In this document: in pieces, positions 14,029 through 21,476 of the stretch | Layout of the letters: the number at the start of each line of letters is the position of its first letter | Numbering within the stretch: the stretch's first letter is position 1 | NCBI GenBank assembly: GCA_027460525.1 | Contig: JAPZAS010000009.1 | Span: forward strand, 1 to 64,000 | Length of the DNA stretch: 64,000 nucleotides | Origin: Candidatus Methanoperedens sp. | GTDB taxonomy: Archaea > Halobacteriota > Methanosarcinia > Methanosarcinales > Methanoperedenaceae | Reading direction: 5' to 3' | Program-made: the position numbers and the translations under genes | Notes under the pieces: generated by a model | Databases searched by the model: none | Seen by the model: the letters and a program-made list of their open reading frames with translations, nothing else | Told to the model about the DNA's origin: nothing

Positions 14029-15867
14029 TCATGTTCCAAGGCTTATCCGCAGTGTTACAATGGAAGGATTTTCCATTATCCGATACGCAGCATCCGTTTC
14101 CTTTCCTATTTTGACATCACCTTTTCGTCCCACGGTCGCGGTGAAAAGATAGTCTTCGCCGCTATACACATCCACGGTTTCGCCTGATAATCCTCTGACC
14201 GAAAGAACCACATGCTTCTTCCCGCGCTCAACCATGGGTACAAAACTTGTAATCTCGGGTTTGCTTTTCTTTCCTGCCCATTTTCCTTCCTTTTCACGAA
14301 TATCAAGGTGAATCCCAAGCTTTCTTTCTATCCTGTCTATATTCCTGCCGCCTTTCCCTATGACAGCCGGGATATCTTCCTTGGAAACATACACCATTGC
14401 GCTTGAATCCGACACCACCTCAACCTCAACCGCGCTGCGCGCATATTTCTGAACTTCCTTCTCTATCTCCCCGACCGCCAGAGCCCATGTGCCTGGACGT
14501 TCCAGTTCCTCACCCACAGGCATCACCACGACCTGCTCCCCGTATGTGTATATCTCGTATTCTATTTTCCCGGTTTCAAAATCTGCCACCGTAATTACCG
14601 GTCGTGCCAGATCCTGCTCCACCATGCCGTGCGGCACTTTTACCGTGAACTTGATGTCATAAACCTTGGAAACCTCGCCTTTATCTATGAAAATCACGGT
14701 ATCCACCACCTGGGGTATTATCCCGAGTTCGACCCGCCCGATGAGCCGCTGGATTGCGTCAACAGCTCTTGTGGCATGAACAACGCCGATCATACCAACG
14801 CCTGCCATCCTCATGTCCGCAAACACATGGAAATCCCGGGTTTTCCTGACCTCGTCGTAAACAGTGTAGTCGGGTCTCACAAGCAGCAGGATATCCGCGG
14901 TTTTTTCCATATCGCCTTTTATAGGCGCATACTGGGTTATGGCATCGGGCACCATTAAATCCCTCGGCGATTCCATTGTTTTCACGATATAACCCTGCTC
15001 GTACAGCACCTCAGCAACACTGGCTGCAAATGTGGATTTACCGGCTCCCGGAGGACCTGCAACAAGTATGCCCCGCTGCCTTTCGATAATCCTTTTTTTA
15101 AGCTCCTTGTTCAGCCTGTAATCATCAAGATGAACGACAGCAACGGGTCTAACAGCCGTAATCTCTAAGCCATCAGAAAACGGGGGTTGCGCGACTGCGA
15201 TGCGCATCGAGCCTATCTGGAAGACCATGACGCCTTCGTATTCTATTTCCAGGTGCGAATCAGGGTCGCGTTTTGCCCTTTCGATGAGTTCTTTTATGAT
15301 GGAATGAAGCTCGGCATCGGTGGAGGCTTTGTCCCTGATTTTTACAAGCTTTTGCTTGCCCACGCTGCCCTTTTTAGCCACTGGCGGGACATTTTCTTTG
15401 AGGTGGATTGAAAGGGTATCGTGAGTGAAAAATTCCTCAATGCGAAGGGGTTTTAACTCCTCCATGATCGGAGTAAGGTATTCTACATTCAATCCTTTTG
15501 CGCGTGCCACCTCTGCCTGCACCCTGTCGCTTGTTATAAAAATCGCATTGTTCTCGACCGCAACCGCGCGTATCATGGAATCTATCTCTCCTGCGGAGGC
15601 AAGTTTTATCTGCTCAAGCGAGGGGCGTTTACCTGTGAATTCAAGCCTGATCTCCCCTCTCTTTGCCATGTCGCTTAGTTCTTTTAATTCTTCAAGCCCT
15701 TTGAAACCTGTTTCCCTTCCTCTGTTTGCCTGCGCTTCAAGTTCAGACACGAGTGCTTCAGGGATGATGACTGCGGCTTCCTTAAATTCCCCGGCTTTTA
15801 ATTTCGCTGTTATGCGCCCGTCGATGATAACACTGGTGTCAGGGACTATGCAAAACGTGTCGTTCAT
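14029..15867 (-). CDS. PIN-ATPase-KH protein (PilT-like archaeal ATPase)
   Basis: A 612-residue fusion: PIN nuclease domain (residues 1-120, CIVPDTSVIIDGRIT with acidic residues repeated in FITSDRVQAEVA), a PilT/VirB11-like secretion-type ATPase (GILVAGPPGAGKSTFAASV, ending GEVSKVYDIKFTV), a KH RNA-binding domain (DIPAVIGKGGRNIDRIERK) and a small C-terminal beta domain. The family is widespread in Euryarchaeota and is suspected to act in RNA metabolism. The start at 15867 fits the family N-terminus; the frame runs 45 codons further upstream and would overlap the neighbouring nucleotidyltransferase gene. Confidence 0.92.
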   Translation of the reverse strand: MNDTFCIVPDTSVIIDGRITAKLKAGEFKEAAVIIPEALVSELEAQANRGRETGFKGLEELKELSDMAKRGEIRLEFTGKRPSLEQIKLASAGEIDSMIRAVAVENNAIFITSDRVQAEVARAKGLNVEYLTPIMEELKPLRIEEFFTHDTLSIHLKENVPPVAKKGSVGKQKLVKIRDKASTDAELHSIIKELIERAKRDPDSHLEIEYEGVMVFQIGSMRIAVAQPPFSDGLEITAVRPVAVVHLDDYRLNKELKKRIIERQRGILVAGPPGAGKSTFAASVAEVLYEQGYIVKTMESPRDLMVPDAITQYAPIKGDMEKTADILLLVRPDYTVYDEVRKTRDFHVFADMRMAGVGMIGVVHATRAVDAIQRLIGRVELGIIPQVVDTVIFIDKGEVSKVYDIKFTVKVPHGMVEQDLARPVITVADFETGKIEYEIYTYGEQVVVMPVGEELERPGTWALAVGEIEKEVQKYARSAVEVEVVSDSSAMVYVSKEDIPAVIGKGGRNIDRIERKLGIHLDIREKEGKWAGKKSKPEITSFVPMVERGKKHVVLSVRGLSGETVDVYSGEDYLFTATVGRKGDVKIGKETDAAYRIMENPSIVTLRISLGT

Positions 15868-15943: not shown

Positions 15944-16351
15944 TTATATTCGATCTTTGTCGTCTCTGAGATCAGACAATTCGGTTTTGGACATGGGGCC
16001 AAAGAGACTTTTTTCCTTAGCCGCGACTATCTTTTCCAATGAAACAGCCTCGGCTGAATTTAAAATAGCATTCCTGCGAATGTAATTCCTACTGGATTCT
16101 ATACCTCTGCGGCTGACTATGTCCACATCGCGCCCTAATATCTGTTTGAGTTCGTCTTCCATATGGACTAGATCAAACATTGTATGTTTTGCATCTTCGC
16201 TGAAGGTGACGAGGACATCAACATCGCTGTCGGGACGAAAATCTTCTCGAAGCACCGAGCCGAACAGGGAGAACTCTCGTATTTTCCATTTTTTGCAAAA
16301 CTCAACAATCATGTCTCTTGGGATATCGATGCGTGGTTTTGTATTTGACAT
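15944..16351 (-). CDS. Minimal nucleotidyltransferase (MNT/MntA-like)
   Basis: A 135-residue protein with the nucleotidyltransferase motif FSLFGSVLREDFRPDSDVDVLV, i.e. GS followed by the DxD catalytic pair. A conserved C-terminal stretch follows (RDVDIVSRRGIESSRNYIRRNAI). MntA proteins normally neutralise a HEPN ribonuclease by adding AMP. No HEPN gene is adjacent here: upstream lies spacer DNA and downstream the ATPase gene. It may be an orphan antitoxin or serve another substrate. It marks the left edge of an accessory island. Confidence 0.85.
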   Translation of the reverse strand: MSNTKPRIDIPRDMIVEFCKKWKIREFSLFGSVLREDFRPDSDVDVLVTFSEDAKHTMFDLVHMEDELKQILGRDVDIVSRRGIESSRNYIRRNAILNSAEAVSLEKIVAAKEKSLFGPMSKTELSDLRDDKDRI

Positions 16352-16575
16352 TCTTCCATGTCTATTATTGTGATTGTTCTTTTAAATCTCTTTTCATGGG
16401 TGCAAGTGATATAATGTAACAAAATAGAAATTCGCGCCGCGCACTGCTTGCAGGGTGTGTCGGTGAGTGTCCTAAAATGGCAAAAGAAGGTTATTATTGG
16501 TGTGTTGATGAACTGCATCTCGACAAAACTGGCACAAAGAAAATTTATTTACCCAATAAATGCATGTACGTATCT

Positions 16576-16791
16576 ATGGAAAAAACAATTACAGTTTCAG
16601 ACGATATTTATAAAGGACTCCCAAAATTTAAGAGCCACAGGAGCTTTTCGGAAATTTTAGCTGGAATGATAAAGAAGAAAGGGAATCTGGAAACACTGGA
16701 AATCGGGTTCGGAAGTAGGAATATCAGGGAAAAAGAGACGCTGAAAGCAGAACTTAAAAAAGTTGAAGAGGATTTCCAGAAATGGATTTAA
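16576..16791 (+). CDS. vapB: VapB antitoxin (UPF0330/DUF217 family)
   Basis: A 71-residue antitoxin from the ATG at 16576: MEKTITVSDDIYKGL, then KFKSHRSFSEILAGMIKKKG, the ribbon-helix-helix pattern of archaeal VapB, followed by a charged helix that should wrap the toxin. The frame is open from an ATG at 16477, which would add 33 residues lacking family resemblance. tttattta about 30 bases before 16576 could be the TATA box of a leaderless mRNA. Its end overlaps vapC by ten bases, as usual for such pairs. Confidence 0.82.
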   Translation: MEKTITVSDDIYKGLPKFKSHRSFSEILAGMIKKKGNLETLEIGFGSRNIREKETLKAELKKVEEDFQKWI

Positions 16792-17153
16792 TTCTGGACA
16801 CGAGTATAATTATAGAAATTTTCGGCGGTAATCAAAGGATTCTCGAACTTTTGAGAAAATATGGAAACAAAGTGTTTGGGATAGCCTCTATAACGGAATT
16901 TGAGCTGTTTTGCGTTGATTTAAAAGAGAGAGAAATAACAATGCTTGATAGCCTTCCAGCATGTGATTTTGATAAAAAAGCAGGAAGAATTGGGGGAAAT
17001 ATTTTTAAGGATATGAAGAAAGCCGGAAAGATGCCTAAGATAAAGGATTTACTGATTGCTGCAACCTGCATAGCTAACAATAAGCGACTGATAACAGGCG
17101 ATGGAGATTTTGAGTCTTTCAAGAAATATGGGCTGGATGTGGAGGTAATCTGA
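16782..17153 (+). CDS. vapC: VapC PIN-domain ribonuclease toxin
   Basis: A 123-residue PIN-domain toxin. The first acidic residue is in LILDTSIIIEIF, the conserved Glu in SITEFELFC, and the C-terminal acidic pair in PKIKDLLIAATCIANNKRLITGDGDFE. VapC toxins cut RNA, usually tRNA or rRNA, when VapB is degraded. It is translationally coupled to vapB by a ten-base overlap. The location next to a nucleotidyltransferase and a large PHP-ATPase suggests an accessory or defence island. Confidence 0.92.
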   Translation: MDLILDTSIIIEIFGGNQRILELLRKYGNKVFGIASITEFELFCVDLKEREITMLDSLPACDFDKKAGRIGGNIFKDMKKAGKMPKIKDLLIAATCIANNKRLITGDGDFESFKKYGLDVEVI

Positions 17154-17180
17154 AAAGTTGTGGCAAAGAGAGATAATATT

Positions 17181-17348
17181 ATGAAAGCGAAGAGATACGA
17201 AGCAAAAGATGAGGATGAGCTTCTCAGGTTTATCGACGAAGACCCGGACAAATTAAAAGGCTGGGAAGGTCCAATCGAGGCGCATTTGAGGTCTGTTCGC
17301 TATCCTCCGAAGAAGTCTAAAGGTAAAGTCTGCGCGGTAAATCAGTGA
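17181..17348 (+). CDS. Small hypothetical protein
   Basis: A 55-residue, highly charged protein from the ATG at 17181 (KAKRYEAKDEDELLRFIDED). A GTG at 17160 could extend it by seven residues. It has agagag before the start. No family is recognised. It sits 27 bases after vapC in the same direction and may be part of that unit. The proline/lysine-rich tail (RYPPKKSKGKV) looks unstructured. Confidence 0.5.
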   Translation: MKAKRYEAKDEDELLRFIDEDPDKLKGWEGPIEAHLRSVRYPPKKSKGKVCAVNQ

Positions 17349-17519
17349 GCCTTTTTTTTGTTATAATTTAAACCACAGCATCAGATCCGTTAGCCTTTGC
17401 GCGCCGTGCACTTCAGCACTTCCAGCAGGCGCATCAAAAAAACAGTTTATTCATAAGTTATTATTGGAAATACCATATTCTTTATTATCGTCAAAGACAT
17501 TACTTTGGGTTGGTGTATA

Positions 17520-20117
17520 ATGTCTCTATTGGAAGATATTGAAACGCTGGATAATGGTGCAAAGTTTTACAAATGCGATTTACATATTCATACACCGGCA
17601 TCTTACGATTTTACTGAGAAAACGATCACTCCCAAAGATATTATTGAAACTGCTATTAAAAAAGGATTAAAAGTAATCGCAATTACAGACCATAATACGA
17701 GTAAATGGTGCAAGGACTTGATTGAAGCAGCAAAAGGAACTGAATTATGCATATTACCCGGAGTAGAGATAACATGTTCAGACGGTATAAAAAATATTCA
17801 CTTGATTGCTCTTTTTCCCAAAGATAAAAGTAAACGAATTCAGGATTTATTATCTAAAATTAAAATTAATGTAGAAGAGCAAGAAAATCCGACTGGAGAG
17901 ACGCATAGCGAATACAATGTCGTCAATGTTCTTAATGTAATTAAAGAGTTAGGTGGTTTTGCAATTGCACCACATGCGGATAGCGTGAATGGTATTGCAT
18001 CTGGAAAAGAGGGAATTCCCAGAGTCGACATTATAAAACACCCCGCTTTAATGAGTGTGGAAACAAAAAATGAGAAGACAAAGAAGTGTTTAGATGGTAG
18101 CGATTCTGTATATAATAGAAAATTGGCTTGTATCAGAAGTTCTGATAATCATTCACTGGATGGAATTGGCTCAGAATCGACCTTCATAAAATTAGATATG
18201 TTGGATTTTGAAGGGTTGCGTCAAGCATTCTTAGACCCCGATTCGCGTATTAGAGAAGTAGAAGAATCCATCGAATACCCATTAATTATCGGAATGATCT
18301 TCGAAGGTGGATTTTTAGACGGGCATGTGCTTCATTTTAATAAAAATTTGAATTGCTTAATTGGAAGTAGAGGAACGGGAAAATCTACGATTATAGAGCT
18401 TTTGAGGTATGCATTAAATGATTCACCAGATGAGATGCTTCAAAAGGTAGAAACCCAACGGCAAGGTTTAATAAAGTATACCCTTGGTGATGGGGGAAAG
18501 GTAACTGTATTTATAAAAACTAGTGCTGGTCAGGTATACCAAATTGAAAGGGCATTTGATGATGAAACCAAGATACTTGATGATAAAGGCAATCAAATTC
18601 AAGTTTCAGTGAACGACTTATTTAAAATTGAAGCCTATAGTCAGGAAGAAGTCGTGGAGATTGCTAAAAAACCTTCGATTCAGCTTGACATGATTGATAG
18701 CCATGCTGATATTAAAGATTTGGTGACCGAAAAAGAGACCATTAAAAAGAAATTAAAGAAAAATGCAAAAGAACTCGGTGAAGAAATTGCACAGGTAGAC
18801 GAGTGGTCGACGGAAGTCGCTCAGCTAGGTATAATAAATCACCAACTTATGGTGCTGGATGAGCATGGGTTGAAAGATCGATTAAAAATTCAACGAATTT
18901 GGGAAAATGACAAAAGAATTATACAAAAAATTCGTGAAGAAATTGAAAAGGAGATTAAAAGATGCGATGATTGGTGTAGTATAGATTCAGTTGAAGTACC
19001 AGTTGCGAGTGATGAATTTGCCAATCCAAAGGTTATCGAACTTTGCCGTAATGCTCTAATAGAGGCAAAACAAAAACAAATGGCTTTAAAGAAAGAAGAA
19101 TTAAAAATCTGGCAAACAACAAAAATTAATTTTGAAAAGTTTTTAATGGAATGGAATAAGAATTATACAAACCAGAAGGAAGCATATCGGGAATTGCTCA
19201 AACAATTGCAAAAAGAAGGAATTCAAGAACCTAGTAATTACTTGAAATTAGAGGATCGCAAAAAAGATTTAGAATTACTGGCAAATAGAGTTGAAGAAAA
19301 AAGAAAAAGTATAAAAAAATACGAAAGAGAAAGAAATAAACTATTAGAAGAGCTCTCTCGTAACAGTAAAAATATTTTTGGAAAAAGGCAAGAAATTGCC
19401 GAAGAAATTACTGAAAAAACTAATAATTTTGTTCAAGTTAAAATCGAACATGAAAAAGATAGAGAATTATATGAGAATTTTGTAATGGAAATGCTTAATG
19501 GATCGGGTATACGCGATACAAAAAGTAATCCTAATAAACAAAGAATAGCTTTAATTCATCCAATTGATTTAGTGAAATTTGTAAGAAATGGACAAATTGA
19601 AGAATTAGCAAAACAAGCTAGTGTAGCTAAAAATATTGCCGAGAAAGCCATATACCACTTTAAAAACAAAGAGATATTTGATTTGGAACTCCAAGATTTA
19701 AATGATAGACCAGAAATAAAATTAAAATTAGAAGATGGAACATACAAACCTATAACAAAATTATCTCCTGGTCAAAAATGTACCGCTATATTATCCATTG
19801 CAATGTTAAAGAAAGACAAACCATTAATTGTAGATCAACCAGAAGATGCAATAGATAATTCATTCATTAGGCAGCAGATTGTAGAAGGGCTTAGAGCAAT
19901 AAAAAATAAACGGCAGATAATACTTGCAACGCATAATGCAAATATTCCAGTTTTGGGCGATGCAGAATTAATCATGGTTATGAAAGCTGAAGAGAATAAA
20001 GGTGAAATTGTTTGTTGTGGTGCAATTGATAGACAAGCAATAAAAGATTATGTAACATCTTTACTTGAAGGTGGAAAAGAAGCATTCACGATGAGATTAG
20101 AAAAATACGGGTTTTGA
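17520..20117 (+). CDS. PHP phosphoesterase - SMC/ABC ATPase fusion (TrlF-like)
   Basis: An 865-residue protein. Residues 15-240 form a PHP phosphoesterase domain with metal ligands in CDLHIHTPAS, AITDHNTS, PGVEIT, APHADS and SSDNHSLDG. An SMC/Rad50-type ATPase follows: Walker A IGSRGTGKSTII near residue 283, about 350 residues of charged coiled coil, signature LSPGQK near 747, Walker B LIVDQPEDAID near 770 and switch His in ILATHNAN near 804. This matches the TrlF-like AAA family found in defence islands. Base composition is visibly AT-richer than the flanking housekeeping genes, and proA starts three bases downstream. Nuclease activity is inferred. Confidence 0.85.
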   Translation: MSLLEDIETLDNGAKFYKCDLHIHTPASYDFTEKTITPKDIIETAIKKGLKVIAITDHNTSKWCKDLIEAAKGTELCILPGVEITCSDGIKNIHLIALFPKDKSKRIQDLLSKIKINVEEQENPTGETHSEYNVVNVLNVIKELGGFAIAPHADSVNGIASGKEGIPRVDIIKHPALMSVETKNEKTKKCLDGSDSVYNRKLACIRSSDNHSLDGIGSESTFIKLDMLDFEGLRQAFLDPDSRIREVEESIEYPLIIGMIFEGGFLDGHVLHFNKNLNCLIGSRGTGKSTIIELLRYALNDSPDEMLQKVETQRQGLIKYTLGDGGKVTVFIKTSAGQVYQIERAFDDETKILDDKGNQIQVSVNDLFKIEAYSQEEVVEIAKKPSIQLDMIDSHADIKDLVTEKETIKKKLKKNAKELGEEIAQVDEWSTEVAQLGIINHQLMVLDEHGLKDRLKIQRIWENDKRIIQKIREEIEKEIKRCDDWCSIDSVEVPVASDEFANPKVIELCRNALIEAKQKQMALKKEELKIWQTTKINFEKFLMEWNKNYTNQKEAYRELLKQLQKEGIQEPSNYLKLEDRKKDLELLANRVEEKRKSIKKYERERNKLLEELSRNSKNIFGKRQEIAEEITEKTNNFVQVKIEHEKDRELYENFVMEMLNGSGIRDTKSNPNKQRIALIHPIDLVKFVRNGQIEELAKQASVAKNIAEKAIYHFKNKEIFDLELQDLNDRPEIKLKLEDGTYKPITKLSPGQKCTAILSIAMLKKDKPLIVDQPEDAIDNSFIRQQIVEGLRAIKNKRQIILATHNANIPVLGDAELIMVMKAEENKGEIVCCGAIDRQAIKDYVTSLLEGGKEAFTMRLEKYGF

Positions 20118-20120
20118 ATC

Positions 20121-21476
20121 ATGTCCACACCCCTCCTCACCAAAGTAACCCTCGCAAGCTCCGCCTCCATCCCCTTAGCCAGTGTGCCCGGCGCTGTAAA
20201 GAACAAAGCCCTCACGGCAATGGCGCAGGCTTTGGACTCAAACAGGGACAAAATAATCTCTGCCAACAAAAAAGACATTGCAGCGGCAGAGAAACTCGTC
20301 GAGGCAGGCAAGCTCTCAAAGGCTCTCATTAAAAGGCTGAAAGTTGATGATACCAAGATAGACGAGATGATAGCAGGCATCAGGGATGTCATCAAATTCG
20401 AAGACCCGGTTGGGAAAACGCTCTCGGCACTTGAATTAGACACCGGTCTTGAACTTTTCCAGGTAAGCTGCCCGATTGGACTAATCGGTGTAATATTCGA
20501 ATCCCGTCCCGACGTTGTGCCGCAGATAATGTCCTTATGCCTCAAAAGCGGCAATGCCACCATCTTCAAAGGAGGAAGCGAGGCGGCTTATTCCAACAGG
20601 GCGCTCTTTGATGTGCTCGTAAACGCCATCGAGGGCATGGAAGGCATGCCAAAAGGCGCATTTGCGCTCATGGAAACGAGGGAAGAGGTTAACGAGATGC
20701 TGAAACTCGATGAGTACATAAACCTCATCATTCCAAGAGGCTCGAACGAGTTCGTGAAATACATACAGGATAATACGCGGATTCCTGTGCTGGGACACTC
20801 CTCTGGGATTTGCCATGTGTATGTGGACAGCGAGGCAGACCTGAAGAAAGCCCTCGATGTATGCTATGATGCCAAAGTCCAGTACCCTGCAGTGTGCAAT
20901 GCCATGGAAACAATGCTCGTGCATAAGGATATTGCAGAAAGGTTTCTCCCTGAGATTGGGAAAAAATACCACGAGGCAGGCGTCGAGCTTCGGTGCGATG
21001 AGCGCTCATTCAAGCTTTTAAAAGATCTGGGATTCTTAAAAGCCCTACTTCATGCCACTGAAGAGGACTGGAGGACGGAGTATAACGACCTGATACTTTC
21101 CATAAAAATTGTGGATTCGCTGGATGAGGGTATAGACCATGTCAACAAATACGGCTCCCACCATACGGATGCCATTGTGACAGAGGACAAAAGTAATGCT
21201 TCAAGGTTCATCGAGCTTGTGGACTCATCCAGCGTGATGTGGAACGCTTCAACGAGATTTTCGGACGGTTACAGGTACGGGAAAGGCGCGGAGGTGGGTA
21301 TCAGCACGAACAAGATACATGCCCGCGGACCCGTGGGGATGGAAGGGCTTCTGATATACAAGTACGCACTTCTGGGAAAGGGGCATAAAGTTGCGGATTA
21401 TGTTGGAAAGAGTGCAAGGAAATATACACACAAAAAGCTGAATGCAAGCCTTGCAGATAAAATGGGTCAAGGATGA
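20121..21476 (+). CDS. proA: Gamma-glutamyl phosphate reductase
   Basis: A 451-residue aldehyde-dehydrogenase-fold enzyme of proline synthesis that reduces gamma-glutamyl phosphate to glutamate semialdehyde with NADPH. Signatures: FQVSCPIGLIGVIFESRPDVVPQ, the catalytic Cys in QYPAVCNAMETMLVH and TEDKSNASRFIELVDSSSVMWNASTRFSDG. It is slightly longer than bacterial ProA. It overlaps proB by four bases (ATGA), so the two are coupled. Its start lies only three bases after the AT-rich PHP-ATPase gene, so its native promoter may have been displaced. Confidence 0.96.
   Translation: MSTPLLTKVTLASSASIPLASVPGAVKNKALTAMAQALDSNRDKIISANKKDIAAAEKLVEAGKLSKALIKRLKVDDTKIDEMIAGIRDVIKFEDPVGKTLSALELDTGLELFQVSCPIGLIGVIFESRPDVVPQIMSLCLKSGNATIFKGGSEAAYSNRALFDVLVNAIEGMEGMPKGAFALMETREEVNEMLKLDEYINLIIPRGSNEFVKYIQDNTRIPVLGHSSGICHVYVDSEADLKKALDVCYDAKVQYPAVCNAMETMLVHKDIAERFLPEIGKKYHEAGVELRCDERSFKLLKDLGFLKALLHATEEDWRTEYNDLILSIKIVDSLDEGIDHVNKYGSHHTDAIVTEDKSNASRFIELVDSSSVMWNASTRFSDGYRYGKGAEVGISTNKIHARGPVGMEGLLIYKYALLGKGHKVADYVGKSARKYTHKKLNASLADKMGQG

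Follow-up and report, generated by a model that had tools for sequence, protein, structure and literature searches.

A solo TrlF-family PHP–ATPase gene directly before proA is a defence candidate in a probable ANME-2d archaeon

The window (the whole 64,000-nt stretch of DNA analysed here) contains, between a PIN-ATPase-KH gene and proA, a minimal nucleotidyltransferase (NTase) gene, a VapBC pair, a 55-residue protein and an 865-residue protein joining a PHP phosphoesterase to an SMC-like ATPase. All of these parts had been named in the original prediction, made from the sequence, and all were found at the locus, together with the remnant of a further toxin gene:

14029..15867, minus strand: flanking PIN-ATPase-KH gene, present in 27 of 31 congeners
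15944..16351, minus strand: orphan MntA-type NTase, 135 aa (PF01909; PADLOC PDC-S09)
about 16576..16791, plus strand: VapB antitoxin (PF02697, over cut-off)
16782..17153, plus strand: VapC PIN-domain toxin (PF01850, over cut-off; NF047959)
17163..17180, plus strand: remnant of a BrnT-like toxin gene, reduced to a degenerate 3' end and lying before the small ORF (compare GATAACAAAGCGAAGTGAATATTATG in relatives)
17181..17348, plus strand: small ORF, 55-aa orphan partner of a BrnT-like toxin, 84% identical to a G028 ORF directly downstream of a BrnT-like gene
17520..20117, plus strand: trlF, 865-aa PHP phosphoesterase with SMC/Rad50-type ATPase and internal coiled coil (NF045780 match)
17556..18269, plus strand: PHP domain of trlF, residues 13–250, ligands H22, H24, H58, E83, H152 and D209 (PF02811; same residues in E. 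coli Ppl)
18360..18386, plus strand: Walker A of trlF, IGSRGTGKS, residues 281–289
19761..19844, plus strand: ABC signature LSPGQ and Walker B VDQPE(D) of trlF, residues 748–775
19932..19934, plus strand: switch histidine H805 of trlF, invariant in the aligned sequences
20118..20120: gap of 3 nt between the trlF stop and the proA start, with the conserved proA promoter of relatives missing
20121..21476, plus strand: flanking proA, followed by proB

The genome to which the window belongs (G000; 2.44 Mb in 37 contigs, 99.5% complete) was compared with 31 congeneric genomes, labelled G0xx, and 14 control genomes. Among solved structures, the closest relatives of its mcrA product were 9QQT (1224 bits) and 9QR1 (1190 bits), followed by 7NKG at 904 bits; 9QQT and 9QR1 represent the Mcr of 'Ca. 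Methanoperedens' (ANME-2d), from two species (PMC12413448). Judged from this one gene, whose product is closest to theirs, an ANME-2d archaeon is the most likely host.

We determined how base composition varies across the block. GC content was 34.7% over positions 16352–20117 relative to 45.0% for the whole window, making this the window's most AT-rich stretch; outside the block, every 3.77-kb stretch had at least 40% GC. The trlF gene itself had 33.2% GC and a GC3 of 0.25, the lowest among 25 sampled genes, with GC3 values of 0.44–0.60 in nearly all other sampled long genes. The AT-rich block described in the original prediction thus holds for VapBC and trlF; the NTase, at 42.9%, and the small ORF, at 46.4%, are close to normal in GC. 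Of the flanks, the PIN-ATPase gene and proA are each conserved, but their adjacency is not, both flanks occurring together in G028 only.

Scored against the TrlF model NF045780, the 865-aa protein reached 533.3 bits (cut-off 350) over the full profile (1–944 of 944), and against the Ppl model NF042955 it reached 253.4 bits, below the threshold of 1000. The control, E. coli Ppl, passed both models, at 1330 bits for Ppl and 477 for TrlF; Ppl therefore constitutes a subgroup inside the TrlF family, as scored there. The TrlF-like identity proposed earlier is now close to certain, and the window protein is a TrlF rather than Ppl itself. It shares with the family the full-length match and the combination of a PHP domain with an SMC-like ATPase and coiled coil, and no feature excludes its membership, although it sits in a deep branch common to one congener only (91% identity), with the next relatives at 28–33%. 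Pfam matches to PHP (PF02811) and AAA_21 were both over the gathering cut-off, and the metal ligands, Walker A, LSPGQ, Walker B and switch histidine said to be retained could all be located in the gene. H211, a further possible ligand, is Thr in the sister copy.

Structure prediction, proposed as a check on the original reading, agreed with a PHP domain joined to an SMC/Rad50 head. The AlphaFold2 model (65 sequences) had a pLDDT of 89.2 and a pTM of 0.79; in Foldseek searches its ATPase part matched heads of SMC, cohesin, condensin, Rad50, RecF and JetC, its PHP domain matched RNase AM (7ug9) and 3e0f, and no full-length solved homologue appeared within the top 50. The ABC head with coiled coil is common to Rad50/SbcC, SMC and Wadjet JetC; however, the window TrlF has its nuclease as an N-terminal PHP domain fused to the ATPase and a coiled coil of short length, and query-normalised TM-scores to these proteins were just 0.2–0.3. 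SMC-like matches in the TrlF genome scan repeatedly contained in-frame stops. For G000 recoding was considered and rejected, the in-frame stops arising there because the profile match extends upstream of the GTG start.

Ppl of E. coli is a validated single-gene anti-phage protein, a nuclease with 3'–5' ssDNA exonuclease activity that is inhibited by NTPs. RNase AM is an exoribonuclease, and substrates differ among PHP nucleases. The window TrlF shares with Ppl its domain order, its solo gene, the PHP ligands HxH, DH, E, H and D, the Walker A, the signature Ser-x-Gly-Gln, the Walker B DQPED and the switch histidine, whereas the two proteins are 25% identical where their N-terminal parts align and 21% identical overall. 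By analogy, the SMC-like head would bind NTP and hold the PHP nuclease in check; infection, through a fall of the NTP pool, exposure of 3' ends on invader nucleic acid, or both, would free the PHP domain, which would then digest DNA or RNA from 3' ends and thereby stop the infection. The grounds for carrying the Ppl mechanism over are family membership and the conserved active-site residues. On these grounds nuclease action through the PHP site is quite probable, restraint by NTPs as in Ppl is close to an even proposition but somewhat doubtful, and sensing of foreign ends by the window TrlF, as originally suggested from its nuclease–SMC architecture, is conceivable by the same analogy.

We then considered the smaller genes of the block, which are independent toxin–antitoxin pieces passing through the proA-upstream site. 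The NTase scored 43 bits on NF047752 (cut-off 60), and its orthologues are 84–94% identical to it over residues 1–103, with residues 104–135 forming a replaced tail. In at least four relatives these orthologues have HepT (PF01934, 98 bits) next to them; G000 has lost the cognate HepT and keeps only paralogues of about 40% identity elsewhere in the genome, and the window lacks the adjacent HepT by which a type VII HEPN-MNT (MntA/HepT) system is recognised. The NTase is an MntA-type antitoxin orphaned of HepT and not a TrlF component. VapB overlaps the PIN-domain VapC by 10 nt, the arrangement of a type II system, and the pair looks intact; VapB orthologues lie near proA in G005, G007 and G012. 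The small ORF (55 aa from its ATG, 62 from an upstream GTG) matched no Pfam family, and its BrnT-like neighbour in G028 scored 33.1 bits on PF04365 (cut-off 34.5). Only the last codons of the BrnT-like toxin remain in the window, directly after VapC, and the same junction is found in G007; VapBC appears to have displaced this toxin. The idea that the small ORF might be an associated factor has to be given up, since it is an orphan of the BrnT-like toxin, its partner in G028, and occurs independently of TrlF.

These observations bear on whether the whole AT-rich block, consisting of NTase, VapBC, small ORF and TrlF, is one mobile multi-gene defence unit. The parts are contiguous, and low GC is common to VapBC and trlF; however, the NTase and the small ORF are each left over from a pair with another toxin, and in relatives the parts come and go independently of TrlF, with NTase-HepT and the small ORF present without TrlF in G016, G025 and G001, VapBC without TrlF in G005 and G012, and TrlF without VapBC, in a different gene order, in G028. 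A single unit of this kind is highly improbable, and the block cannot be kept together as one system.

Relatives differ greatly in the DNA that precedes proA: G005 carries a TIR protein and VapBC there, G012 carries VapBC, G007 has a VapBC in decay, and G016, G025 and G001 have NTase-HepT with the small ORF. Most of these relatives have a TATA-like promoter about 55–60 nt before proA; in G000 and G028, trlF occupies the promoter position. With the trlF stop 3 nt before proA and the promoter replaced, proA-proB should be transcribed from the trlF transcript. The letters upstream of trlF are no more than suggestive of the old proA promoter. Neither an integrase nor a tRNA, target repeat or phage gene was seen at the trlF/proA site, and comparing the flanks of the trlF insert by eye revealed neither a convincing target-site duplication nor convincing terminal repeats. 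A tRNA integration site or RNA element was also considered and set aside, with no Rfam match in 13–24 kb and no tRNA in the window.

We next examined how TrlF is distributed within the genus. Matches over the cut-off were found in 9 of the 31 congeners and in none of the 14 control genomes. The window's version occurs only in G028 (91% identity), likewise directly before proA; the other genus copies are 25–33% identical to it and located elsewhere. In a tree of 80 sequences (quick, with a midpoint root and some long branches, most markedly G022), the genus copies formed four deep lineages: window/G028; G007/G010, grouped with one Anaerolineales and one Gemmatimonadetes sequence; G022; and G011/G020/G023. 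Between G000 and G028, trlF had a dN/dS (omega) of 0.13 and a dS of 0.34, the low omega indicating purifying selection; the flanking PIN-ATPase gene had a dS of 0.68–0.84, above that of trlF, and the lower trlF value may reflect later transfer or composition only.

Within the genus, TrlF often stands alone between housekeeping genes (nrdD, engB, gltX) and not in large defence islands, a setting that would also suit a nuclease acting on host nucleic acid in stress or repair, on DNA or tRNA ends, and tied to nucleotide status. Repair enzymes likewise have a Rad50/SMC-like head and a PHP exonuclease fold, and the G007 and G010 copies lie about 40 nt downstream of the anaerobic ribonucleotide reductase gene nrdD. 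We nonetheless consider a host role of this type unlikely, TrlF being absent or below cut-off in most congeners and in all 14 controls, polyphyletic, and borne on plasmids and phages or situated beside BREX/Hma genes.

Evidence for this mobility came from relatives outside the genus. Near full-length family members were found on 78 plasmids. The best plasmid match, at 32.8% identity, was on a Halapricum plasmid, where the genes flanking trlF encode a DUF1156 methylase, a type IV restriction-like DUF262 protein, an HmaC-matching DUF499 ATPase and an SNF2 helicase; on a Klebsiella plasmid, brxL is directly followed by TrlF. Phage relatives included one in a Yersinia P2-like phage and another, split into two ORFs, in a Vibrio phage of 14 kb; a search of viral contigs with the single window protein as query found no relative, and among the papers searched none mentions TrlF together with phage. 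Distant TrlFs neighbour Hma genes, DUF1156 methylases, PLD-helicases and type I and II methylases, and at 1e-10 their neighbour set matched 281 PADLOC models compared with 54 in the control set, a result we regard as supportive only because the control is one archaeal genus with shorter proteins and the models are redundant. The claim that TrlF-like proteins occur in defence loci is thus borne out by relatives beside brxL, Hma-like and type IV restriction genes, and the pattern that would speak against it, vertical inheritance in housekeeping neighbourhoods and never near defence genes, is not the one seen. Because the distribution in the genus is patchy and spans four deep lineages, with relatives on plasmids, in phages and beside BREX/Hma-like genes, the most plausible reading is that a defence gene was gained horizontally more than once.

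The same plasmids and phages, together with the toxin–antitoxin remnants beside the site, could also point to selfish or exclusion cargo, serving plasmid or phage stabilisation or superinfection exclusion and left behind after loss of its element. However, none of the marks of such an element (integrase, tRNA, target repeat or phage gene) was seen at the site, and purifying selection has lasted long enough for a dS of 0.34 between species; we consider cargo of this sort improbable, and it overlaps with defence in any case, as exclusion is a form of defence. The explanation we favour, with reasonable though not high confidence, is that the core of the locus is a horizontally acquired solo TrlF-family defence protein of Ppl type, because of its family membership, intact PHP and ABC motifs, purifying selection, polyphyletic presence and association with plasmids, phages and defence genes. 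An antiviral or anti-plasmid function as such is probable. The PHP-SMC protein therefore keeps its standing as a defence candidate, its family including the validated anti-phage Ppl and being mobile and defence-associated; it looks functional and is a good but ordinary one, from a known family, and the multi-gene island reading is wrong.

Comparison across the family also revealed paired loci. A gene of about 407 aa encoding SLFN_AlbA_2 and HATPase_c_4 lies directly downstream of trlF in 34 of 74 loci (the open TrlF frames in the genome collection, from the 80 best matches to one query alignment, and so not a whole-family proportion), and the pair is also found in G011, G020 and G023. These loci have a TrlF gene of the same family, whereas the window trlF is followed by proA without a partner, and PF13749 had no match at all in the window genome. 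PHP motif I is HxH in the window copy and QxN in 36 of 83 aligned sequences, many paired copies among them; an AlbA_2 partner accompanied 23 of 34 evaluable QxN copies relative to 14 of 38 HxH copies (Fisher p = 0.011, or p = 8e-4 before four genus copies were counted as partnered; both nominal, ancestry ignored). The 29-row tree group holding the window TrlF has one partnered member, and the window copy is of the solo, HxH-intact type. We tentatively suggest, as a possibility we would not bet on, an undescribed split between a solo PHP-active form (the window, Ppl-like) and a paired form, in which the AlbA_2/HATPase protein would be the effector and TrlF, its PHP site decayed from HxH to QxN, the sensor ATPase, with the window trlF in addition having taken the place of the proA promoter and so coupled proline synthesis to its own transcription. 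Such a split could show how one scaffold changes effector. Under the favoured reading, a lineage of methane-metabolising archaea would carry a defence gene of Ppl type, from a family that would have been acquired at least four separate times within one genus.

Across many bacteria and archaea, TrlF is followed directly downstream by a gene encoding Schlafen-AlbA_2 and HATPase_c_4 domains, and the PHP metal-ligand motif HxH of TrlF is lost alongside this partner more often than not.

Schlafen-AlbA_2 + HATPase_c_4 gene 3' of TrlF (coordinates within each locus):
L071:4544-5713
L072:2919-4088
L073:7765-8928
L074:6859-7902
34 loci within L078-L157

The Polyangiaceae copy (L108:7406-12664) forms the end portion of a 1752-codon ORF whose extra N-terminal part (~865 aa) had no Pfam family match; this ORF may represent a gene fusion, or its start may have been called too far upstream. 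In the small, tectivirus-like Vibrio phage PE001 (L159:1343-3959), separate PHP and ATPase ORFs make up TrlF; the gene may be naturally split, or a frameshift may have divided it.

In the congeneric genomes G010 and G007, a TrlF of another lineage than the window's lies ~40 nt downstream of nrdD (anaerobic ribonucleotide reductase), a closeness that is notable because Ppl, the E. coli anti-phage member of the family, reportedly senses nucleotide pools.

L069:9187-11406, TrlF 3' of nrdD, G010
L070:11298-13691, TrlF 3' of nrdD, G007

By eye, a gene pair at L069:5569-6038, adjoining the G010 copy, resembles HicB/HicA.

The window holds a second AT-rich spot at 589-1464 (GC 0.35, GC3 0.29), containing a 291-aa ORF with no Pfam family match.

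At the proA-upstream site of congeneric genome G005, a TIR-domain protein (L048:1852-2760) adjoins VapBC; this site acquires varied defence-like genes.
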